The translations under genes were made by a program, and so were the position numbers. A stretch of 21,619 bases of DNA from a virus. Under the pieces are notes generated by a model that ran no database searches, had not been told where the DNA came from, and saw only the letters and a program-made list of their open reading frames with translations. Location of the stretch: the IMG/VR virus record IMGVR_UViG_3300043466_000227, positions 1 through 21,619 of that record; one strand, written 5' to 3'. This document shows, in pieces, positions 1 through 12,713 of the stretch (within the stretch, counting starts at the first letter, position 1; the number at the start of each line of letters is the position of its first letter).

Positions 1-665
1 TTCCTACGGCCATTTTTAGCCTCGAAATGAGCTCCGAGCAGTTAGTTGAAAGGTTAGAGTCAATAACGAGTGAGATACCGTTAAAACGCCTTAGAATGAA
101 TAATTTGAATGACGCTGAAAGAAAGATACTACTAAAAACTGATGATAAGATATTACTTTCCCCTCTACATATTGAAGATATGGGCGGTATAAGTATTTCG
201 CAACTTAGAGCAAAGGCAACCATTATGAAGCAGAAGTATGGCATTAAAGTAATCTTTATCGACTACCTACAGCTTATGAGTGGACAAGGCAAAAACAACC
301 AAAACCGAGAGCAGGAGGTGAGTTTAATAAGCAGAAGCCTTAAATCCTTAGCAAAAGAGTTACAAGTACCGATTATCGCCCTATCTCAATTATCTCGTAG
401 AGTAGAGGAACGAGGAGATAAGATGCCACAGTTATCTGACCTTAGAGAATCTGGTTCTATTGAGCAAGATGCTGATGCGGTTATTATGCTAATGAGGCCT
501 AATTACTATGAAATGACTAATCCAATAGAGATTGGTGGAACAGAGTATGCCACTAATGATTTAGTTATCTGTAAGGTTGAGAAGAATAGGCATGGCACTA
601 CAAAGAATCTACCATTAAGATTTTTACCAGAAACAATGACATTTATAGATTATTCTAATGGGTAA
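1..665 (+). CDS. dnaB: Replicative DNA helicase, DnaB type, C-terminal part (5' end outside window)
   Basis: The frame is open from base 3 to the TAA at 663-665, and an ATG at 27 is internal, so the gene starts left of the window. The first residues read TAIFSLEMSSEQLV, the conserved stretch that follows Walker A in DnaB-family helicases. Further on are Walker B (VIFIDYLQLM), ALSQLSRRVEERGDKMPQLS, the LRESGSIEQDADAV motif, and KNRHGTT, which carries the arginine-finger-like basic residues of motif H4. The family forms a hexameric 5'-3' helicase at the replication fork; Walker A itself is off the left edge. The gene overlaps the next by 8 nt, so it is part of a rightward early/replication operon. 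The family call is firm. Whether the missing N-terminus has the usual primase-interaction domain cannot be seen. Confidence 0.95.
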   Translation, partial: PTAIFSLEMSSEQLVERLESITSEIPLKRLRMNNLNDAERKILLKTDDKILLSPLHIEDMGGISISQLRAKATIMKQKYGIKVIFIDYLQLMSGQGKNNQNREQEVSLISRSLKSLAKELQVPIIALSQLSRRVEERGDKMPQLSDLRESGSIEQDADAVIMLMRPNYYEMTNPIEIGGTEYATNDLVICKVEKNRHGTTKNLPLRFLPETMTFIDYSNG

Positions 666-1029
666 GCATAATGGCTATAGGAACAGACGTAAGTTCGAGA
701 TAGAAGAGGCTCGTAATGCTGATGGTACCTATCAAGCTATTAAGTTATTTGCTAAGAACACTAAGATTTTAGTAATACAAATGCCTACAGCATTGTTAGA
801 TGGTTTTATGTGGTTAGAATATGAGAGAGACAACCAACCATCTGGCATAGCTGATAAAAATGTAGAGTTCTTTGCTATAAACTTTGATTTAAGGGATAGG
901 ATATACTTTATGAGGTCAGAAATGCTAAGAAAAAAAGCTCGTAGGTACTTTAGAGTAAACAATACTAAGGTCGAAGGAAACGTCAAATATGTGCAAGTTC
1001 CAATCGATGAGATGATTCGTTATGTATAA
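658..1029 (+). CDS. Hypothetical early protein, 123 aa
   Basis: I do not recognise this family. The protein is soluble and basic at its ends, with a mixed alpha/beta look: an N-terminal basic stretch (KHNGYRNRRKFEIEEARN), a hydrophobic strand (TKILVIQM), and a C-terminal region with IYFMRSEMLRKKARRYFR, an arginine/lysine-rich helix that could contact nucleic acid. The ATG lies inside the last codons of the helicase gene (8-nt overlap), so the two are probably translationally coupled and the product may act in replication. No catalytic motif stands out. A DNA-binding or replication accessory role is inference from position and charge only. Confidence 0.75.
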   Translation: MGKHNGYRNRRKFEIEEARNADGTYQAIKLFAKNTKILVIQMPTALLDGFMWLEYERDNQPSGIADKNVEFFAINFDLRDRIYFMRSEMLRKKARRYFRVNNTKVEGNVKYVQVPIDEMIRYV

Positions 1030-1046
1030 TATATATAAATATATTG

Positions 1047-1054
1047 TAACTTTG
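1047..1054 (+). promoter_or_regulatory. Possible Bacteroidota -7 box (TAACTTTG) before the VRR-NUC gene
   Basis: The 29-bp AT-rich gap between the two genes contains TAACTTTG, matching the Bacteroidota sigma-A -7 consensus TAnnTTTG. It ends 4 nt before the ATG at 1059. No TTG or TTTG is found about 19 bp upstream, and a transcript from it would be nearly leaderless, so this is weak. Confidence 0.25.
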
Positions 1055-1058
1055 GTTT

Positions 1059-1430
1059 ATGGCAACATACAAAACAGCTTCCGAGCTGACCAAAATGATG
1101 ATTGACTATTTAGGACAAAGAGGGATGGAAGTATGGAGAAATAATAACCTTGCTGTAAAAGGTAGGGCGTTTATTGGGAGGAAAGGAGTCCCAGATATAA
1201 TCGGTTATGATAAGAAACATGGTCAGTTTGTAGCTTGTGAGATTAAGAAGTTAGGCGATAGGATTAGTCCAGAGCAGTTTACTTTTTTAACTCAGTTAGG
1301 ATTAGCAGGAGGAGCAAGTATGTTATGTAGCCAGACATCAGATGAAACAATAAAATTAGAAATATTTAAAGATGGCGAAACTAAAATCTTCAGCTGGAGG
1401 GAATCAGAAAAAGAATTTCGGCAAACGTAA
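1059..1430 (+). CDS. VRR-NUC domain nuclease
   Basis: This 123-aa protein has the compact layout of phage VRR-NUC (PD-(D/E)XK fold) nucleases. An N-terminal helix is followed by GVPDII (catalytic Asp46), then VACEIKK (Glu61 and Lys63, the ExK pair) and ISPEQFTFL, where Gln73 fits the conserved position after the catalytic core. A final strand and helix follow (GGASMLC). Proteins of this family are Mg-dependent nucleases; stand-alone phage versions are thought to act on branched or recombining DNA, and the position after dnaB fits a replication/recombination role. The last 59 nt overlap a short basic ORF in another frame. The fold assignment is strong; the exact substrate is unknown. Confidence 0.9.
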   Translation: MATYKTASELTKMMIDYLGQRGMEVWRNNNLAVKGRAFIGRKGVPDIIGYDKKHGQFVACEIKKLGDRISPEQFTFLTQLGLAGGASMLCSQTSDETIKLEIFKDGETKIFSWRESEKEFRQT

Positions 1431-1503
1431 AATGGGTAGGGCTAAAAAATCTTACAATAAACACAGTCCGAAGCCTAAACAATACAGAGGCCAAGGCAGA
1501 TAA
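1372..1503 (+). CDS. Small, very basic protein (43 aa) overlapping the nuclease gene
   Basis: An ATG at 1372 opens a 43-codon frame ending with TAA at 1501-1503. The product begins MAKLKSSAGGNQKKNFGKRK and ends KPKQYRGQGR; about a third of residues are Lys or Arg and almost none are acidic. It overlaps the 3' end of the nuclease gene by 59 nt in a different frame, then fills what would otherwise be an 83-bp gap. An internal ATG at 1432, just after the nuclease stop, would give a 23-aa form. The gly/lys-rich, low-hydrophobic composition suggests a disordered nucleic-acid-binding or ribosomal-protein-like peptide. I infer it is real from its length, composition and tight packing; its function is unknown. 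Confidence 0.6.
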   Translation: MAKLKSSAGGNQKKNFGKRKMGRAKKSYNKHSPKPKQYRGQGR

Positions 1504-1513
1504 AAATTAAATT

Positions 1514-1699
1514 ATGGAAAACTTAGAATTAGAAAACAAAGAAGAGAAAGTAGTAAAAGCTACAAAGAAAGCTAAAGAGTTTGTATCTAACGAGACAATA
1601 CAGCTTATTCAAGACATCTTGGATGATGGTACTGTAGACTTAAAGTGGAGAGAAGCCTTAAAAGCACAAGTAAAAAAATATAAAAAAGATGCAGAATAA
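1514..1699 (+). CDS. Hypothetical charged protein, 61 aa
   Basis: This is a short, highly charged, probably helical protein. The N-terminal half is Glu/Lys-rich (MENLELENKEEKVVKATKKA) and the C-terminal half, VSNETIQLIQDILDDGTVDLKWREALK, looks like a small helical hairpin. It follows an AAATTAAATT leader after the 43-aa gene, and its last 11 nt overlap the start of the next gene, so it sits in a translationally coupled chain. I do not recognise the family and see no catalytic residues or membrane segment. Confidence 0.7.
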   Translation: MENLELENKEEKVVKATKKAKEFVSNETIQLIQDILDDGTVDLKWREALKAQVKKYKKDAE

Positions 1700-1898
1700 C
1701 TACGAGTACGATTCAGTCGTTGAGAATGTTATCAATCGTTTAAAAGACAGAGCAAGGATAGGATTTGAGAAATACGGAACCGACCTTGACAGAAATGACC
1801 TAATAACAGAACAATGGATTGAACACGCTATAGAAGAGGCATTAGATTTTAGTCTTTACCTCACTAAGTTAAAAGAGCAATTAAAGAAAAGTTTATAA
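1689..1898 (+). CDS. MazG-like small protein, 69 aa (possible NTP pyrophosphohydrolase-related)
   Basis: The protein is all-helical. RARIGFEKYGTDLDRNDL is followed by a helix ending EHAIEEALDFSLYLTKL. The EEALD element is an ExxD half of the acidic metal-binding motif of all-alpha NTP pyrophosphohydrolases (MazG/dUTPase superfamily), and many phages carry small proteins of the same RxxxGxxKYG...HAxEEALDxxxYL pattern. At 69 aa it is shorter than an active MazG domain, and the first ExxE pair is not clear, so it may be a minimal dimeric enzyme or a non-catalytic relative. The ATG lies within the end of the upstream gene (11-nt overlap). If active it would hydrolyse non-canonical or excess nucleotides during infection. 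Confidence 0.65.
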   Translation: MQNNYEYDSVVENVINRLKDRARIGFEKYGTDLDRNDLITEQWIEHAIEEALDFSLYLTKLKEQLKKSL

Positions 1899-1916
1899 CA
1901 ATAAAAACCAAACAAA

Positions 1917-2165
1917 ATGTCTAAATCAAAAGAACTCTACCTTGGGAGATGCTTTACACTAACAACAGCATTCGGTAGTTTAAGAAAAATCTCATTAGGC
2001 CCACAAGACCTACAGAAGTTAAATGAATTTGCTGCTGATAACAAAGGATGGGCTAACATCTTAGTAAAGATGAAGAAGTCTCACAATCCTGGTGAATCAG
2101 ATTTCTATGTGGAAATTGACCCATGGAAGCCAGATGGCGAAGTAAAAGAAAAACTACCTTTCTAA
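1917..2165 (+). CDS. Hypothetical protein, 82 aa
   Basis: A soluble small protein with an A-rich leader (ATAAAAACCAAACAAA) typical of Bacteroidota start sites. The central part, LGPQDLQKLNEFAADNKGWA, is helical. The second half, NILVKMKKSHNPGESDFYVE, continues into IDPWKPDG and looks like a beta-hairpin with a Trp/Pro-containing turn. The protein ends EKLPF. The aromatic C-terminal tip loosely resembles the partner-binding tails of ssDNA-binding proteins, but the rest shows no OB-fold pattern, so I make no functional claim. Its place in the early operon suggests a role in DNA metabolism or host take-over. Confidence 0.7.
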   Translation: MSKSKELYLGRCFTLTTAFGSLRKISLGPQDLQKLNEFAADNKGWANILVKMKKSHNPGESDFYVEIDPWKPDGEVKEKLPF

Positions 2166-2175
2166 ATTAACTATT

Positions 2176-2358
2176 ATGAAAAATATACTTGAAGCAATGA
2201 TTGGTTTATTAGCTCTAATGGTAATGGTTTATATACCATTTGCTTTCCTTATTGCAGAATGGAACCCTATCTATTGGCATTTAACCTTTAGAGGTTTATA
2301 TGTACTTTCTATTGTAGGATTAGTTACATTTGCAGTGAAAGAGTACCAAAAAAAGTAA
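2176..2358 (+). CDS. Small two-helix inner-membrane protein, 60 aa
   Basis: Two hydrophobic segments are clear: residues about 8-27 (IGLLALMVMVYIPFAFLIA) and about 38-54 (RGLYVLSIVGLVTFAV). They are joined by a short loop with Trp/Asn/Pro and followed by a basic tail (KEYQKK), which by the positive-inside rule places the C-terminus in the cytoplasm. It is the last gene of the rightward operon, 10 bp after the previous stop and about 30 bp before an intrinsic terminator. Being an early-operon membrane protein it could be a superinfection-exclusion or host-modifying factor, but nothing in the sequence decides this. It could also be a holin, although the holin-like gene of the late lysis cassette is a better candidate. 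Confidence 0.7.
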   Translation: MKNILEAMIGLLALMVMVYIPFAFLIAEWNPIYWHLTFRGLYVLSIVGLVTFAVKEYQKK

Positions 2359-2387
2359 AGTGTTGTGTTTTGTAGATAAATAGGTGG

Positions 2388-2418
2388 CCCTCCATATTCT
2401 TATGGGGGGTTCTTTATT
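2388..2418 (+). terminator. Rho-independent terminator of the rightward early operon
   Basis: CCCTCCATA (2388-2396), loop TTCT, then TATGGGGGG (2401-2409) form a 9-bp stem with one G-U pair, followed by the T-rich tract TTCTTTATT. It lies 29 bp after the last + strand gene. Confidence 0.75.
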
Positions 2419-2420
2419 AT

Positions 2421-2454
2421 AAAAAAAGCCCCAGTTATAGCAGTAACTGAGGCT
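2421..2454 (-). terminator. Rho-independent terminator, leftward (distal copy)
   Basis: Read on the - strand, AGCCTCAGTTA (2454-2444), a 6-nt loop and TAACTGGGGCT (2437-2427) pair over 11 bp with one G-U pair, followed by TTTTTTT. On the + strand the same stem has a C-A mismatch and no T tract, so it is directed leftward. It would end the sRNA candidate and any read-through from the late operon. Confidence 0.85.
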
Positions 2455-2486
2455 CATATTTGACTATTAGCGTAGTCATATTATGG
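2421..2486 (-). ncRNA. Candidate phage small RNA, about 65 nt, leftward
   Basis: Between two leftward terminators lies a promoter-like element (2492-2522) whose predicted start is near 2486. The transcript would begin CCAUAAUA, fold a 6-bp hairpin (UGACUA, loop CGCUAA, UAGUCA at 2478-2461), continue through AAUAUG, and end in the terminator hairpin and U7 tract at 2421-2454. The unit has a promoter, two stem-loops and a terminator, with no long frame; a 14-codon ORF (MTTLIVKYEPQLLL) starts at 2476 and stops inside the terminator stem. This layout is what an independently transcribed sRNA would have. It could instead be a leaky continuation of the late transcript. No homologue is known to me. 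Confidence 0.4.
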
Positions 2487-2491
2487 TATTG

Positions 2492-2522
2492 CAAACATAA
2501 ATATTATTGTTTAATAAACAAA
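2492..2522 (-). promoter_or_regulatory. Bacteroidota-type promoter, TTTG-N19-TATGTTTG, leftward
   Basis: On the - strand TTTG (2522-2519) is followed after exactly 19 nt by TATGTTTG (2499-2492). This matches the Bacteroidota sigma-A consensus (-33 TTTG or TTG, -7 TAnnTTTG). The -33 box directly abuts the T tract of the upstream leftward terminator. The predicted start is near 2486, and what follows is the small hairpin RNA candidate, not a gene. Confidence 0.5.
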
Positions 2523-2554
2523 ATAAAAAAGCCCCAGATTTTACCTGGAGCCTT
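2521..2554 (-). terminator. Rho-independent terminator at the end of the late operon (leftward)
   Basis: On the - strand GCTCCAG (2551-2545), a 7-nt loop and CTGGGGC (2537-2531) form a stem with a G-U pair, extendable by three weaker pairs (AAG with TTT), followed by TTTTTTATTT. It lies 36 bp after the last late gene. Its stem and T tract resemble the distal leftward terminator: both end CTGGGGCTTTTTT on the transcript strand apart from stem details. Confidence 0.85.
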
Positions 2555-2589
2555 CACCAAAACCAACCAAACACCTATGAGAGAGCATC

Positions 2590-2862
2590 TTAATTCTGTT
2601 TATTAGAACTATCATAAAATTTTGTTAATACTGAGCCGTAAAGCATAGCTTGATACCTCATTATAAAACTATTGATAGATTCATTGACATAGAAGTAGTC
2701 CTCGTTTGTCATATACACAAAGCACCTTTCATCATTCTCCTCATCAGCAGTAACGCTAACTACTTGATAAATGTTGATATAAGCATCTGATTCCTCTGAA
2801 TTATCTTGGAACTCATAGCTTTCATCTTCATCTTCTGTCAGTTGTATGATGTGCATTAACAT
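2590..2862 (-). CDS. Hypothetical acidic protein, 90 aa, last gene of the late operon
   Basis: I chose the ATG at 2862; the frame can be extended to a TTG at 2907, but that would deepen the overlap with the gene upstream. The product starts MLMHIIQLTEDEDE, has an acidic linker (YEFQDNSEESD) and then a beta-rich part, INIYQVVSVTADEE and RCFVYMTNEDYFYVNESINS, ending in a helix. The last part has the feel of small Sm-like or FlbD-like beta domains (strand, loop with N/D, Y-x-V-x-E-S), but the match is too weak to name. It overlaps the 51-aa coiled-coil gene by 35 nt. Function unknown. Confidence 0.65.
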   Translation of the reverse strand: MLMHIIQLTEDEDESYEFQDNSEESDAYINIYQVVSVTADEENDERCFVYMTNEDYFYVNESINSFIMRYQAMLYGSVLTKFYDSSNKQN

Positions 2863-2983
2863 TTGTGATACTATTTTTAAGAACAGTAAGTCGCAATTCT
2901 CTAACAATCAATTCAAGCCTTGCTTCTAAATTGCTTTTCTCCTTCATTAATTGGTTAATCTTTACGTCTACTTCTCTGTTCAT
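2828..2983 (-). CDS. Small coiled-coil protein, 51 aa
   Basis: An ATG at 2983 opens a 51-codon frame that stops with TGA at 2830-2828. The product MNREVDVKINQLMKEKSNLE continues as a single long amphipathic helix with leucine/isoleucine at heptad positions (VKINQLM, LEARLELIVRELRLTVL), ending in a short polar tail. It overlaps the following 90-aa gene by 35 nt, like other coupled pairs in this operon. A TAAATTTG box lies just upstream. Such short coiled coils often form dimers with partner proteins; no specific role can be assigned. The overlap and regular heptads make it likely to be a real gene rather than chance. Confidence 0.55.
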   Translation of the reverse strand: MNREVDVKINQLMKEKSNLEARLELIVRELRLTVLKNSITNVNAHHTTDRR

Positions 2984-2984
2984 A

Positions 2985-2992
2985 CAAATTTA
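2985..2992 (-). promoter_or_regulatory. Possible -7 box (TAAATTTG) before the 51-aa gene
   Basis: TAAATTTG on the - strand matches TAnnTTTG and ends 1 nt before the ATG at 2983. There is no TTG 19 bp upstream, so only half of a promoter is seen. The 93-bp gap in which it lies (2984-3076) is the largest between late genes after the one behind the capsid gene. Confidence 0.2.
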
Positions 2993-3028
2993 CGATTTAA
3001 TTCTAATGGAAATAAAAAGTGCATACCT

Positions 3029-3043
3029 TATTGATAATCAATA
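3029..3043. repeat. Short perfect palindrome (operator-like) in the 2984-3076 gap
   Basis: TATTGAT-A-ATCAATA is a perfect 7+1+7 inverted repeat located between the metallophosphoesterase stop and the 51-aa gene. It lacks a following T tract on either strand, so it is not a terminator. It could be a repressor site for the putative promoter 36 bp downstream, or chance in AT-rich DNA. Confidence 0.25.
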
Positions 3044-3076
3044 TGATATACACTTTATGTCATCAGGTGAGAACTT

Positions 3077-3784
3077 CTATTTTTTTGGAAGCCTTATTAT
3101 TTTAGTACCTAAAGGCATCGGTACAAATATAGCAACTCTTCCGCCATCTAAAACCACTCCACAGCCTAATGTTGGTCTTTTGGGGAAAGGTCGTGAATAC
3201 TCCATAGCATAGGCATCAATATCGATACCACAGCCTACGTTCATGCCGAATATCATGTCTTTATCTGACGATGAGTATAAAACACCACCAAAACTATGGA
3301 TATGACCTATAACAGTTGATTGTCGAGCATCTCTTGCTCTGTTAATTGCACCAGCTTGTCCAGAACTACCAGTTCCATGAGTATATAGAACACCGTCTAT
3401 TTCCCATTCTAAGGCCCATTTCCAGCCTTTAGGAGCATCCCATGCTTGTTCGTATGATTTGATGAATCTCTCTGGTAAACCGCTTGTTTGAGCCTTTCTT
3501 TTATGTAAAGCTGAGTGGTTACCGATACAGACTTTAACATTAGGGAAAGCCTTGTACCATTTGTACATAGCTGCTTGAGCTAAATCAGCCTCATATCCAG
3601 CTCCATGACCGTCTGGCTTAGATTCGTGATAAGAGATTGCGTGATTGTCTACTTCATCTCCGATATGGACTACTTCGGAGCATTGAAACTTGTTATACAC
3701 TTCAAGGCAAAAGTTCCTATAAAGTGGATGACAGAATGGTTCGTGCGTATCTCCTATGACAAGCACATTTTTTTTAGATGCCAT
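3077..3784 (-). CDS. Calcineurin-like metallophosphoesterase
   Basis: The 235-aa protein has the complete set of metal-binding motifs of the calcineurin-like phosphoesterase superfamily: GDTHEPF (Asp12, His14), IGDEVDNH (Asp42), GNHS (Asn88, His89), THG (His135) and GHIHSF (His160, His162). The usual Asp/Glu after GNH is Ser90 here. Such enzymes cleave phosphomonoesters or phosphodiesters with two metal ions; phage members include nucleases and nucleotide phosphatases, so the substrate is open. There is no signal peptide, so it is cytoplasmic. It sits 19 bp after the endolysin gene at the end of the late operon, an unexpected place for DNA metabolism; it might act in host or phage RNA/DNA processing late in infection. 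Confidence 0.9.
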   Translation of the reverse strand: MASKKNVLVIGDTHEPFCHPLYRNFCLEVYNKFQCSEVVHIGDEVDNHAISYHESKPDGHGAGYEADLAQAAMYKWYKAFPNVKVCIGNHSALHKRKAQTSGLPERFIKSYEQAWDAPKGWKWALEWEIDGVLYTHGTGSSGQAGAINRARDARQSTVIGHIHSFGGVLYSSSDKDMIFGMNVGCGIDIDAYAMEYSRPFPKRPTLGCGVVLDGGRVAIFVPMPLGTKIIRLPKK

Positions 3785-3803
3785 ATTGGTTGGTTTGGTT
3801 TAT

Positions 3804-4262
3804 CTACTTGTAAGGTGCGTAGGCAGTTTTGCCGTTAACCTTAAGTGCTCTCAACACTTGCTTTCTATTTTTAGCTCCATTATAAGAAACGTGAACCCAG
3901 TCTGGAGCATCTTTTGTTCCAAACTCAAAAATTAACTGGTCAAAATCTAAAGTGTCTTTGATAAAATCAAATACTTCTTTATTAGTTGCATTAGTCATAC
4001 CATCCATATCGATATCTGCCGCTTTAGCCTCACAATGTTGTGAATTTAATGACCCTCCAATGTAATGGTTCAAAGCCTTAGACCTATATCCAGATGAAAT
4101 ATTAATAGGGCCAAACTTCATTCTGATTGGCTCTAATACTTTCTCACATAAAGTGATAAGGTTCTGTAAATGTTCTGGAGTTGGTTCATTTGATACTCCA
4201 TGTCTTTTTGCTGACTCACTACGAGTAAACTCAGCTAATGAAAAATGTGCTGTTAATTTCAT
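3804..4262 (-). CDS. Endolysin, peptidase M15 family (VanY-like D-Ala peptidase)
   Basis: The 152-aa protein fits the Peptidase_M15_3 layout: FSLAEFTRSESA near the N-terminus, ISSGYRSKALNHYIGG (residues 55-70), SQHCEAKAADID with the zinc ligands His76 and Asp83 spaced by seven, and DWVHVSY with the third ligand His124. Glu113 or Asp121 would be the catalytic base. The family cleaves peptide bonds in the peptidoglycan stem or cross-bridge. No signal peptide is visible, so it should depend on a holin for access to the wall, and a holin-like gene and a 28-aa membrane peptide lie directly upstream. Its start is 1 nt after the stop of the 28-aa gene. Confidence 0.9.
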   Translation of the reverse strand: MKLTAHFSLAEFTRSESAKRHGVSNEPTPEHLQNLITLCEKVLEPIRMKFGPINISSGYRSKALNHYIGGSLNSQHCEAKAADIDMDGMTNATNKEVFDFIKDTLDFDQLIFEFGTKDAPDWVHVSYNGAKNRKQVLRALKVNGKTAYAPYK

Positions 4263-4263
4263 C

Positions 4264-4350
4264 TTAAATCATTTGTTTTACAAAATATGCTAATCCCAGC
4301 AACCATAATAGGAAGCCAAGTGTTAAAATTATCTTTTCGTTCTTAGGCAT
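4264..4350 (-). CDS. Tiny single-helix membrane peptide, 28 aa, in the lysis cassette
   Basis: The frame ATG(4350)-TAA(4264) encodes MPKNEKIILTLGFLLWLLGL followed by AYFVKQMI: a short basic N-terminus, one 17-19 residue transmembrane helix and a Lys near the C-terminus. It fits its neighbours with almost no spare base: the ATG lies 8 nt inside the end of the holin-like gene, and the stop is followed after one G by the endolysin ATG. It is too short for most gene callers. The composition resembles small pinholin-type or holin-modulating peptides, but nothing proves a lysis role. Reality as a gene is supported by the perfect packing and the hydrophobic pattern. Confidence 0.6.
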   Translation of the reverse strand: MPKNEKIILTLGFLLWLLGLAYFVKQMI

Positions 4351-4558
4351 CTTTCTTAAATATTTTCTCTACTGAGGTTAAACCTAAACAACCGAATGCT
4401 AACAAAGCTACTGATTCTACAAGTATTGCACTTGGAGCTGTATGAACTTCACTAAATTGATTGTGATACATAGTAACACATAATGCGATAACACATAGCA
4501 ATCCACATAAACGCTTCATGCTAAATCTACCGTTATCTTCTTGGAAAAACTGTTTCAT
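4343..4558 (-). CDS. Holin-like membrane protein, 71 aa
   Basis: Two hydrophobic segments are visible: residues about 16-32 (RLCGLLCVIALCVTMY) and about 43-62 (SAILVESVALLAFGCLGLTS). An N-terminal amphipathic part (MKQFFQEDNGRFSMKR) precedes them and a basic tail (EKIFKKDA) follows. This is the layout of two-helix holins with both ends in the cytoplasm. The position just before the endolysin gene supports this. Family membership with named holins cannot be shown from the sequence alone. The stop codon is overlapped by the start of the 28-aa gene. Confidence 0.65.
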   Translation of the reverse strand: MKQFFQEDNGRFSMKRLCGLLCVIALCVTMYHNQFSEVHTAPSAILVESVALLAFGCLGLTSVEKIFKKDA

Positions 4559-4559
4559 A

Positions 4560-4952
4560 TTATAATTGACTAAATTGGAAAATGATTAAGAATATTAAGA
4601 TTACTTTTTGCCAAGCATGGTATTTATCCATCTTGTCAAGTTCTTTTTCTCTATTACGATATGTTTCGAGATTAGCTTCGTAGCGATACTTGTAATTTTC
4701 AAGCGTACTAACTTTATAGCTGTAGATAGTGAAAATAGAATCATGTTTTATTATTTTAGATTTTAACGAGTCCTTATAAGCGATTATTGTATCGTTATAG
4801 GACTTATATAGTTTGTTAATAGTGTCTGCTTGACCTATGGTCATTATAACTACAGAGTCACCCTTAATCTTTTTTGTAGTGGGATATTGCGAGTACGCTG
4901 AAACTGATAGCAGTATCATTACTAACACTATCCAAAGTCTGCTTAACTTCAT
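4560..4952 (-). CDS. Exported coiled-coil protein with C-terminal membrane anchor, 130 aa
   Basis: The N-terminus MKLSRLWIVLVMILLSVSAY is followed by SQ, a typical Bacteroidota signal peptide with likely cleavage before Gln22. Then comes a helical, charged region (NKLYKSYNDTIIAYKDSLKS and a second helix with ENYKYRYEANLETYRNREKE), and the last 16 residues are strongly hydrophobic (VILIFLIIFQFSQL). The protein would therefore span the periplasm as a helix and be held in a membrane by its C-terminus. This resembles a unimolecular spanin in layout, but the lipobox cysteine that spanins of that class need is missing. The first 89 nt overlap the end of the upstream exported-protein gene in another frame, an arrangement reminiscent of Rz/Rz1. 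Confidence 0.65.
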   Translation of the reverse strand: MKLSRLWIVLVMILLSVSAYSQYPTTKKIKGDSVVIMTIGQADTINKLYKSYNDTIIAYKDSLKSKIIKHDSIFTIYSYKVSTLENYKYRYEANLETYRNREKELDKMDKYHAWQKVILIFLIIFQFSQL

Positions 4953-5208
4953 TTAGTTCGGTTTTTAGTGTGCTTATCTCTTGCTTAATTTCGGCAAACT
5001 TGTTAACGGTAGACGTTACTATTGCTTCTTTAGCCTCATCTGCTTTTACTTGAACAGCTTTGTTCTTAGTTAAGGTCTGGTTAAAATCATTCATGAACTG
5101 CTCAAACTCCTTATCCTCAGCAATCTTGTTATCCTCTTTTTTAGCTGTCACATTAATCGTTGTGGCTGTAACCGTTAGAAACCCAAAAATTAAAAGAATT
5201 GATTTCAT
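4864..5208 (-). CDS. Exported coiled-coil protein, 114 aa, overlapping the next gene by 89 nt
   Basis: A signal peptide or N-terminal anchor (MKSILLIFGFLTVTATTINV) is followed by a charged, helical body. NKFAEIKQEISTLKTELNEV and KQTLDSV give a clear leucine/isoleucine heptad pattern. The C-terminal end (AISFSVLAISHYKKD) is encoded by the same DNA as the signal peptide of the next gene. I see no lipobox. In context (four consecutive envelope proteins before holin and endolysin), a spanin-like role in outer-membrane disruption is plausible but unproven. The short C-terminal hydrophobic run could be a second membrane contact. No named family recognised. Confidence 0.65.
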   Translation of the reverse strand: MKSILLIFGFLTVTATTINVTAKKEDNKIAEDKEFEQFMNDFNQTLTKNKAVQVKADEAKEAIVTSTVNKFAEIKQEISTLKTELNEVKQTLDSVSNDTAISFSVLAISHYKKD

Positions 5209-5214
5209 GGCATA

Positions 5215-5520
5215 TTATTTTACAGATGATTTAATAGCACCCATTGCATCAAGAGTCTCTAACTTAGTAGTCGTTGAACTTAGGGCTGTTTTACACTCAA
5301 TTAACGCTTGTGTCTTTAAGCTATCTTTATACTCAAGATTGGTAATCCTTGCGTCTTGAGAGTCGATTTGATTGTTAAAATTGCCTCTAATATCTACATA
5401 AAGGACAGTTATACCGATTATAACTAAAAACATAGTACCCTTAATCGGGTCTTTACTAAATTGGGAGAAACTAATCGGAAGAGGATTAGCACTTACGTTA
5501 ACGTCTTTCTTTGGAGCCAT
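5215..5520 (-). CDS. Membrane-anchored coiled-coil protein, 101 aa (i-spanin-like layout)
   Basis: A 25-30 residue cytoplasmic leader (LPISFSQFSKDPIKG) precedes one transmembrane helix (GTMFLVIIGITVLYVDI, residues about 28-45). A C-terminal coiled coil follows (NNQIDSQDARITNLEYKDSL and onwards to TTTKLETLDAMG). The layout, cytoplasmic N-terminus, single helix and periplasmic coiled coil, matches inner-membrane spanin subunits, and small proteins of this look are common in phages of Flavobacteriales to my knowledge. It starts 1 nt after the previous stop. There is no direct sequence evidence for fusion activity; it could equally be a membrane scaffold for lysis proteins. Confidence 0.65.
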   Translation of the reverse strand: MAPKKDVNVSANPLPISFSQFSKDPIKGTMFLVIIGITVLYVDIRGNFNNQIDSQDARITNLEYKDSLKTQALIECKTALSSTTTKLETLDAMGAIKSSVK

Positions 5521-5521
5521 A

Positions 5522-6115
5522 TTACTTTTTACCTATTTTAAAATACAAGCTACCAGAGTAACTCATATTGTTATTTTTATTAATATTAAGATTAAGGCCT
5601 ATTAGAGCCTTATTTTTGGCACTTAACATCAATCCAGGACTTAGTACTTCTAAGCCATTAGATTGGCTAAAATCGCCTCTTATGCCATAAAAAAGCCTAT
5701 ATTTAGCTTTCTCTGCATAAAATTGCTTAACATAGATGGTTTTTTCGGTAATCTTGGACTCAAAAGACCTCGATTTGATACGATTTTGGCTGATGGTATC
5801 ATTAATCACAAAGATATTAGAATCTTGATTAATGGTATCAGTATAAGCTAATACTGCATTATAATCGTTTATTATGCGTATTGTATCGTGAATAGTAGTC
5901 GTATCTGTAGCTATAATCACAAAAGGGATAGAATCCCCTTTTATGTACCGATTTCTGTACGTTTTTGTGTACACAGTATCATGCACCTCTTTGACTTTTA
6001 CATACTTGGATAGGTCAATATCCTCTGTTTTATTAGATTTATGACATGATTCATAGGCAAATACGCCTAAGAAAAAGAATCCAATAATAAGTAAGTAGTC
6101 TCTAAGATGTTTCAT
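5522..6115 (-). CDS. Membrane-anchored beta-rich envelope protein, 197 aa
   Basis: An N-terminal hydrophobic segment (YLLIIGFFFLGVFAYESC, residues 7-24) is followed by an extended, Thr/Ile/Asp-rich region (DTTTIHDTIRIINDY, TDTINQDSNIFVINDTISQN) and a C-terminal part of alternating polar and hydrophobic residues with glycines (YGIRGDFSQSNGLEV to YSGSLYFKIGKK), like beta-hairpins of an outer-membrane or lectin-like domain. Phages of Bacteroidetes often carry proteins of this architecture near lysis genes (DUF6808/DUF6549-like, from memory and unverified). Cys24 is preceded by Tyr-Glu-Ser, a poor lipobox. It starts the envelope-protein cassette, 1 nt after the preceding tail-tube paralogue. Its role in lysis is inferred only from position. 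Confidence 0.6.
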   Translation of the reverse strand: MKHLRDYLLIIGFFFLGVFAYESCHKSNKTEDIDLSKYVKVKEVHDTVYTKTYRNRYIKGDSIPFVIIATDTTTIHDTIRIINDYNAVLAYTDTINQDSNIFVINDTISQNRIKSRSFESKITEKTIYVKQFYAEKAKYRLFYGIRGDFSQSNGLEVLSPGLMLSAKNKALIGLNLNINKNNNMSYSGSLYFKIGKK

Positions 6116-6116
6116 A

Positions 6117-6494
6117 TTATGCTAAAGTATAATCTCCAGTTCCTTGTAGTGTTACAGAATAAGTAGCAACTCCTTCTACTGGCCCATCAACTGAAATTGA
6201 TTCAATATTGCAACTGCCAGAAAATACTTTAGCTCCGACTGTAAATGTTACAGAAAGTAAAGTATTGTTTTCTTGGTCTGTAAGCATATCAAAATAGTCA
6301 TAGTTGTCTAATGTGATAAGCCCTTCACAATTAATTGTAAATGATTTAAAACCATAAACATATTCTTTTCTAAACCCAGAAGATTTATTTGTAACATCAA
6401 CTTGGTCTGATGATACCTCTAACGAACATGATGTAGAAGCTGCAAATACAACACCGCTTTTTCTTAAAATTATATTTGTTCCGTTAAGTGACAT
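6117..6494 (-). CDS. Tail-tube-like protein, paralogue 2 (125 aa)
   Basis: This protein clearly shares its pattern with the tail tube protein at 11629-12048 and with its direct neighbour. The N-terminal part, NGTNIILRKSGVVFAASTSC then SLEVSSDQVDVT, mirrors NGTLLVVKIGGVAVAHSTSC then SLSVSTDLPDST in the tube protein. The glycine-rich end (VATYSVTLQGTGDYTL) mirrors PATFSASFTGTGALVM. The family is a beta-sandwich that stacks as hexameric rings in siphovirus tails. Here it lies downstream of the tail-tip gene, just before the lysis cassette, so it is not the main tube subunit. It may decorate the tail tip, cap the tube or serve as an adhesion domain. Separation from the next paralogue is 18 bp with an A-rich leader. 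Confidence 0.75.
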   Translation of the reverse strand: MSLNGTNIILRKSGVVFAASTSCSLEVSSDQVDVTNKSSGFRKEYVYGFKSFTINCEGLITLDNYDYFDMLTDQENNTLLSVTFTVGAKVFSGSCNIESISVDGPVEGVATYSVTLQGTGDYTLA

Positions 6495-6512
6495 TTTATT
6501 ATATTTTTATTT

Positions 6513-6917
6513 TTATACAAAATCATAAGGGCCAGTGCCTTGTAAAGTTACCGAATAGGTACCAGCACCCTCGGCTGGGCCAGTTAAACTTATTGATGTT
6601 ATATATACATCAGCATTTATAGTAATATTACCAGCAGAATTAAGAATCTGAAATTTTACATTTAATAATGTTCTGTTTTTTTGTGCTATCAATAAATCAT
6701 AATAACTTGTAAAAAACAATGTTACAAAACCATCAGCAGTAATTTCAAATGATGTTGATGTAGGTAAAATTTGAGTATAAGTTCCAGTAGGAGCTGTTGT
6801 TATATCTATAAACTCAGTATTTACTGAAAAAGTGCAATTTGTAGACGCACCAAAAACATTACCAGCAGATACTGAATTGCGATAAAGAACCATATTATTT
6901 CCAAGACTAATCGACAT
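6513..6917 (-). CDS. Tail-tube-like protein, paralogue 1 (134 aa)
   Basis: The same repeated fold as its neighbour: LGNNMVLYRNS, then GASTNCTFSVNTEFIDITTA, a middle TSFEITADGFVTL and the end GAGTYSVTLQGTGPYDFV. Eleven of the last residues (TYSVTLQGTG) are identical to paralogue 2, showing that the two arose by tandem duplication, while the N-terminal halves have diverged. The family is the phage tail tube beta-sandwich. It directly follows the tail-tip gene (9-bp gap with an A-rich leader), suggesting both paralogues are assembled at the distal tail or at least expressed with it. An alternative is a virion surface Ig-like adhesin; the equal size with the tube subunit argues for ring assembly. 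Confidence 0.75.
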   Translation of the reverse strand: MSISLGNNMVLYRNSVSAGNVFGASTNCTFSVNTEFIDITTAPTGTYTQILPTSTSFEITADGFVTLFFTSYYDLLIAQKNRTLLNVKFQILNSAGNITINADVYITSISLTGPAEGAGTYSVTLQGTGPYDFV

Positions 6918-12059: not shown

Positions 12060-12713
12060 TTAATGTTTAAATAATTGATTATCAATTACTTTTATTGATT
12101 TATTTTTAATCCTACTTTTTAATGCTCCATAACTTATGCCGATATAATCAGCAGCAAGTCTTTTGCTTTTAAATTCTCCGACAAAGTTACCATTCTTATC
12201 CCAAACCTTACAAGCCTTCATGAGATGGCTGTTTTCTACACCTTGCTTTGCCAAAGACATTTTTCTTTTAGATTCATCACTTTTAGAAATTCCTTTAGCT
12301 AATGAACCCCAATTATTGCCTTTATTTCTTTCAGCAATCTTTCTTTTATTTTCTTCTGACATCTTTCTACCGATACCAGCTAATCCTATCTTTTTTTTAT
12401 GCTCTTCTGATAATTTACTATTAGCACCACCTGGTCTAATGTTATATCCGAAGTTCCTATCTGTTGCTCTTAAAATCTTAATAAACTGCTCTTCGTAAAG
12501 ATTAAGACTTTCTAAGTCATCAGTTTTTAAGATGGTATAGAACATAAAGGAATCTATGCCATGTTTATTAAAAGAACGCTGAAGGTACTCATTGTCGTGA
12601 GTACCCTTCTTTAGCCTTTGTCTATGGTAACTAAACCTAACTTCTGGCTTATTTATTGTTTGTCCGATATAAGCCTTCCCAGTATTCTTGTTCAGTATCT
12701 TATATAAGTACAT
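12060..12713 (-). CDS. GIY-YIG homing endonuclease, free-standing
   Basis: The 217-aa protein begins with YLYKILNKNTGKAYIGQT, where Tyr4 and Tyr15 stand for the GIY-YIG tyrosines. Arg26, Glu75 and Asn91 (FGYNIRPGG) complete the catalytic set at spacings close to I-TevI. Then follow NUMOD3-type modules (SEEHKKKIGLAGIGRKMSEE, and SDESKRKMSLAKQG) and a C-terminal IENR/NUMOD1-like helix-turn-helix (KVWDKNGNFVGEF, RLAADYIGISYGALKSRIKN) for DNA recognition. It is not within an intron: the flanking genes are both complete. It is wedged between tail terminator (1-nt gap) and tail tube genes, so it is a mobile intruder in a conserved structural block, likely to cut the same site in phages lacking it. 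Confidence 0.93.
   Translation of the reverse strand: MYLYKILNKNTGKAYIGQTINKPEVRFSYHRQRLKKGTHDNEYLQRSFNKHGIDSFMFYTILKTDDLESLNLYEEQFIKILRATDRNFGYNIRPGGANSKLSEEHKKKIGLAGIGRKMSEENKRKIAERNKGNNWGSLAKGISKSDESKRKMSLAKQGVENSHLMKACKVWDKNGNFVGEFKSKRLAADYIGISYGALKSRIKNKSIKVIDNQLFKH

Follow-up and report, generated by a model that had tools for sequence, protein, structure and literature searches.

The gap between the two converging operons of this viral DNA holds a cassette of about 100 bases that, as read from the sequence, carries its own promoter-like motif, a hairpin and a terminator. The DNA analyzed here, referred to as the window, is a 21,619-nt stretch (positions 1 to 21,619 of IMG/VR record IMGVR_UViG_3300043466_000227). 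Our preferred interpretation, to which we assign a probability of roughly 60% based on sequence comparison, is an accessory, insulated small-RNA cassette that is swapped among phages and whose RNA would act in trans. Within this interpretation, the insulation and exchange of the cassette are well supported, production of an RNA from it is likely, and a role of this RNA as a regulator is plausible.

The sequence-only reading had described TTTG, a 19-nt spacer and TATGTTTG (2522-2492, minus strand), followed by a 6-bp hairpin and a terminator stem, with the start of the unit inside the T tract of the late-operon terminator. Both descriptions were confirmed by inspection of the sequence (Table 1): the terminator of the unit is strong, and its TTTG lies in the T-rich tail that ends the late-operon terminator (2555-2527). 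A terminator scan recovered the two minus-strand terminators as well as one plus-strand terminator (2386-2411), and found eight terminator-like sites in positions 1-6000 compared to 2.6 (sd 1.6) in shuffled sequences. At the level of sequence, the unit has both boxes of the Bacteroidota sigma-A promoter, for which excerpts of PMC9723704 and PMC7366714 place TTTG around -33 and TAnnTTTG from -12 to -5. The position -12 to -5 is also the one reported for the -7 box of Flavobacterium psychrophilum (excerpt of PMC9723704), so that a start at A2487 and an RNA of about 67 nt would be expected, with ACCAUAAUAU as its 5' end. The fold of this predicted RNA (2487 to 2421) contains both hairpins. The folding energy, calculated for 2420-2486 with both hairpins together, is low (z -5.3, 0 of 200 shuffles), probably due mostly to the terminator. 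The loop letters of hairpin 1 differ among the three copies. Mechanistically, the polymerase of the host, carrying the main sigma factor of Bacteroidota, would begin transcription near 2487 from a promoter whose TTTG is provided by the tail of the late terminator. The product, an RNA of about 67 nt, would consist of a short 5' end, the 6-bp hairpin and the terminator hairpin, and the terminators on either side would insulate the cassette from both operons.

Table 1 Features in and around the putative RNA unit of the window.
Feature	Position	Strand	Remarks
Late-operon terminator	2527-2555	-	T-rich tail supplies the TTTG of the unit; terminator scan
-33 element TTTG	2519-2522	-	Sequence reading; unchanged in 3/3 copies
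-7 element TATGTTTG, 19 nt after TTTG	2492-2499	-	Unchanged in 3/3 copies
Predicted RNA, about 67 nt	2421-2487	-	Start A2487 deduced from a -7 box at -12 to -5
Hairpin 1, 6 bp, loop of 6 (TGACTA 2478-2473 / TAGTCA 2466-2461)	2461-2478	-	
Terminator hairpin of the unit, 12 pairs, then T7	2426-2455	-	Terminator scan, fold
Segment precisely missing in 14 close relatives	2434-2525	-	Flanked by the 13-bp direct repeat CTGGGGCTTTTTT
Early-operon terminator, opposite side of the slot	2386-2411	+	Terminator scan
14-codon ORF MTTLIVKYEPQLLL	2434-2478 (frame from 2479 to about 2435)	-	Alternative product, unsupported

The exact promoter motif (spacing 18-21) occurs a single time in the window, and shuffled windows contain 0.96 such motifs on average. 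The motif is thus present as initially claimed, but by itself it does not rise above chance and says little in favour of a promoter. The weight of the argument rests on the place of the motif between two terminators and on the comparison with relatives.

For this comparison, relatives were collected with the neighbouring phosphoesterase gene (3077-3784) as seed, which provided 80 of the 198 IMG/VR loci encoding a relative; a few more contigs were added by further searches. Leaving out contigs that end before the gap, it was readable in 80 contigs including the window, five of which were read by eye (L298, L319, L320, L323 and L324). The unit is present in only three of them (the window, L008 and L010), seven further contigs carry unrelated sequences of like layout in the same slot, and 70 are without any unit. 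A core pattern with 20 fixed bases yielded no further copies in viral contigs. The late-operon terminator is also present in relatives without the unit. Fourteen contigs (L003-L007, L009, L012, L015, L017-L019 and L023-L025), which are 92-96% identical to the window upstream of the gap, are precisely without the unit, and in these the CTGGGGCTTTTTT of the late terminator joins the early side directly. The two flanking alignments share 13 bases in these relatives, which places the unit between 13-bp direct repeats.

In a tree of the flanking DNA, the row closest to the window is L017, which is 96% identical and has no unit (support 100/99). The three carriers require three changes on this tree, in which contigs ending before the gap were labelled 'none'; since all three carriers fall in a clade of 18 rows in which every gap is readable, the scattered distribution of the window family (family 1) stands inside this clade. 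Tree position and exact absence together characterize the unit as an accessory segment that comes and goes. We infer that its gain, loss and replacement in phages would proceed through recombination between stretches of conserved terminator sequence, in this case the 13-bp direct repeat.

Loss of the two stems in relatives that keep the flanking terminators had been named as grounds for refuting the initial claim. Taken to the letter, this applies to 70 of the 80 contigs, but only because they do not have the cassette at all; in contigs with the cassette, every stem cell pairs (54 of 54). The three copies of family 1 contain no compensatory changes. Four variable events fall in the transcript, one of them in a stem with pairing kept, which is not significant for three copies (about 0.13, hand calculation). 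The number of alignable copies is about three per family.

The slot itself turns over. The seven other units of like layout comprise family 2 (L073, L014 and L085), family 3 (L080, L081 and L089) and L050. TTTG-N19-21-TAnnTTT[GA] is contained in 9 of 48 distinct gaps. All but one of these promoters start at an upstream terminator (8/9, the exception being L081), and in eight the -7 box is followed at 62-68 nt by the end of a scored terminator, the exception by the scan rule being L050, where a longer-looped hairpin can be seen on inspection. Counting the units themselves, a terminator ends about 62-68 nt past the -7 box in the three carriers and in six of the seven others (eight scored, L085 by eye). 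Adding L085 brings the count to 10 matching gaps among 49, seven of them strict matches, compared to shuffle means of 1.7 and 0.57 and maxima of 7 (loose) and 4 (strict) in 300 runs; the 49 gaps are not independent, and the ten matching gaps represent about four independent families. These numbers bear on the explanation that the unit is a promoter-like string arising by chance in AT-rich DNA beside a duplicated terminator. The near-shuffle frequency of the motif in the window would agree with chance, as would the background in 17 related records (about 443 kb), where 27 exact matches were found and the reversed-pattern control gave 10. Yet the excess of strict matches in the gaps, interdependent as these are, and the uniform distance to the terminator make coincidence highly improbable.

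Family 2 occurs in both orientations: the L073 copy points in the late direction, and the copies of L014 and L085 point in the early one and stand behind the terminator of the other operon. TTTG, the N20 spacing and TAnnTTTG are kept in all three copies. By hand count over these copies, invariant columns make up only 9 of 20 in the spacer and 5 of 15 in the stretch that follows the -7 box, compared to 49 of 51 from GTGTTA into the T tract. Boxes and core that are kept while the spacer drifts are expected of a promoter with a conserved RNA, and not of a mere terminator. The alternative that the segment simply reinforces the stop between the converging operons, with a promoter match that is incidental or yields a by-product, is suggested by the strong final terminator, which resembles the late one, and by the fact that most relatives manage with one terminator per side. 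However, a back-up terminator needs neither a promoter nor hairpin 1, and it would account poorly for the retained boxes and spacing or for the presence of family 2 in both orientations; we consider it unlikely. In family 2 (L073, L085, L014), the RNAs are predicted to have 5' ends that differ in their letters and are nearly all pyrimidines, which we take to resemble anti-Shine-Dalgarno-like seeds.

A further alternative is that the promoter-terminator piece is a recombination module of the PeSL kind, retained because its shared ends aid exchange between phages, with an RNA that has no function. Such a module would fit the 13-bp direct repeats at the ends, the scattered presence and the way units and endonuclease genes are swapped at this site, but there is one such promoter per window and no dense array, and the family 2 core kept next to a changing spacer suggests a selected RNA. 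We regard a functionless module as quite unlikely and continue to prefer the small-RNA cassette.

The slot also takes up endonuclease genes, as noted for the gaps of L020 and L022 and for L081. L022 has an HNH_3 protein there (ORF 6238-6711, minus strand), which replaces the late terminator; L081 has an Endonuclease_7-like protein at about 5320-5730. In L027, L028, L030, L036, L038, L054, L060, L063, L079 and L085, the slot contains short palindromic modules. These modules, for example GTGACA and TGCATGAA repeats, are shared in varying combinations and have no sigma-A-like promoter.

Beyond these relatives, a search of viral contigs for GCTTTTTTATTTG-N12-26-TAnnTTTG showed a peak at N20 behind T tracts with 16 of 55 unique matches, 25 falling at N19-21, about three on average at each of the 14 spacings other than 20, and four at 19, the spacing of the window; these counts refer to the matches listed, from 80 loci among at least 120 stretches. 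Requiring a second terminator left nine contigs for the three spacings N19-21 versus six for the 11 control spacings N8-18. Two of the six control matches are also terminator-flanked and resemble real units, and this control result speaks against the preferred interpretation. The N19-21 set with two terminators folds into hairpin RNAs of about 50-65 nt. L286 and L287, from phages of 67-73 kb, have the terminator stretch ACGAGCCCTGTTTCTACAGGGCTTT in common with L080; either shared ancestry or convergent evolution of so short a hairpin could account for this. A scan of Flavobacterium phage 11b found no promoter of this type. Annotated phages searched for the window unit and the other families gave nothing convincing; 69 annotated records listed with E values of at most 10, whose displayed rows each span about a third of the query, were rejected, as was a 35-nt match to a Staphylococcus phage (E 0.03). 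Bacterial contigs searched for the phosphoesterase gave none. In L192, L235, L187 and L242, a T tract with TTTG is followed by TAnnTTTG at N20 and no obvious gene start; these sites are possible additional RNA units.

Regarding the product, the initial claim of an independently expressed phage small RNA fared differently in its two parts: the insulated RNA unit is well supported by the comparison, but pairing with translation starts of the phage and Rfam searches gave no sign of regulation. The best pairing of the window RNA with 34 translation starts of the phage reached -14.4 kcal/mol, and 78.5% of shuffled RNAs were equal or better. With no pairing signal in the phage itself, a host or competitor target is likelier by elimination. 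A 21-base exact pattern of the 5' end had no matches in host genomes. Rfam gave no family in the window at gathering score and no matches in the units of 12 relatives; below threshold, nine chance-like matches fall in 2380-2570. Among the candidates, Spot 42 RNA (RF00021; 23.3 bits versus a gathering score of 80) was rejected and taken as chance, since its match at 2420-2516 extends over the promoter and lies far below the gathering score. The RNA would most likely act in trans, with its unpaired 5' end and its loops forming base pairs with the partner, and would target host or competing-phage RNA rather than the genes of its own phage. Bacteroides is described in an excerpt of PMC7366714 as having no obvious homologues of Hfq and ProQ, and pairing might thus not need them.

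The 14-codon ORF had been offered as an alternative product, so that the unit would be a small mRNA for a peptide. Its ATG lies about 8 nt past the predicted start and the frame is open to codon 14. Against this, both coding substitutions outside the last codons (L008, L010) change the amino acid, the L008 version stops one codon earlier, and six units of like layout (all three of family 2, L080, L286 and L287) have no ATG. The peptide is hence an unlikely product, with very low odds as an explanation of the unit.

Morons of lambdoid phages are accessory loci with their own promoter and terminator. The window unit resembles them (compare the pertinent part of PMC7067206) as an extra autonomous transcription unit between conserved operons: promoter and terminator are present in its sequence, and the insertion is missing in 14 close relatives with intact flanks. 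In contrast to classic morons, which encode proteins, it encodes at most an RNA of about 67 nt, and it reuses the tail of the upstream terminator as a promoter element. Less close are the PeSL (promoter early stem-loop) cassettes of T4-like phages, which Arbiol in 2010 and Comeau in 2014 reportedly described. These elements, mentioned in an excerpt of PMC4503421, share with the unit the composite promoter-terminator structure, the exchange among phages and the tie to modular shuffling. They differ in phage group, promoter and number, PeSLs being many and the window slot having one unit, and family 2 has a conserved transcript core of about 65 nt between promoter and terminator. The promoter of the unit is of the Bacteroidota type and not a T4 early promoter in a T4-like phage, and the closest annotated capsids are those of Cellulophaga phage phi10:1 and Flavobacterium phage 11b (35-36% identity). 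Judged by its sequence, the unit thus appears to work like a moron with an RNA product and not like a T4 PeSL. Phage regulatory small RNAs, as covered in an excerpt of PMC12197685, are likewise short, structured and terminator-capped, features predicted here, but come from other host groups and often from prophages.

More tentatively, the slot may be part of a general class of phage 'RNA morons'. Such cassettes would measure about 100 bp, be insulated by terminators and encode hairpin RNAs of about 50-67 nt; with the TTTG inside the preceding terminator tail, they would be insertable behind any terminator and in either orientation. At fixed slots, phages of Bacteroidota would maintain a varied and rapidly exchanged pool of such cassettes, as they do with accessory proteins, which would serve to regulate host RNAs or to compete with other phages. 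The terminator stretch of L080, L286 and L287 and the units in L288 and in the 86-kb record L289 would then also be part of this pool. No description of accessory RNA genes in Bacteroidota phages was found in the literature searched, and protein gene callers are blind to such genes. A fixed slot with rotating units provides a simple rule for searching: a T tract with TTTG, then N19-20 and TAnnTTTG, and a terminator after about 65 nt. It also provides natural plus/minus pairs, of which the window and L017 are one, so that function is testable by comparing near-identical phages.

Elsewhere in the window, a long inverted repeat with a T tract at its end (2981-3055, minus strand) is followed by TAAATTTG directly before the ATG of ORF 2828-2983, with no TTTG at the -33 place, and may be a second terminator-promoter tandem; among the loci, 13 distinct variants have TAAATTTGTATG again behind the same TGCACTTTTT context. 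A GIY-YIG/NUMOD homing-type endonuclease (12060-12713, minus strand) lies within the structural gene block. In L288, an Rfam match to RT-17 RNA (4614-4695, plus strand; 45.6 bits, gathering score 40.4) is located away from its unit.
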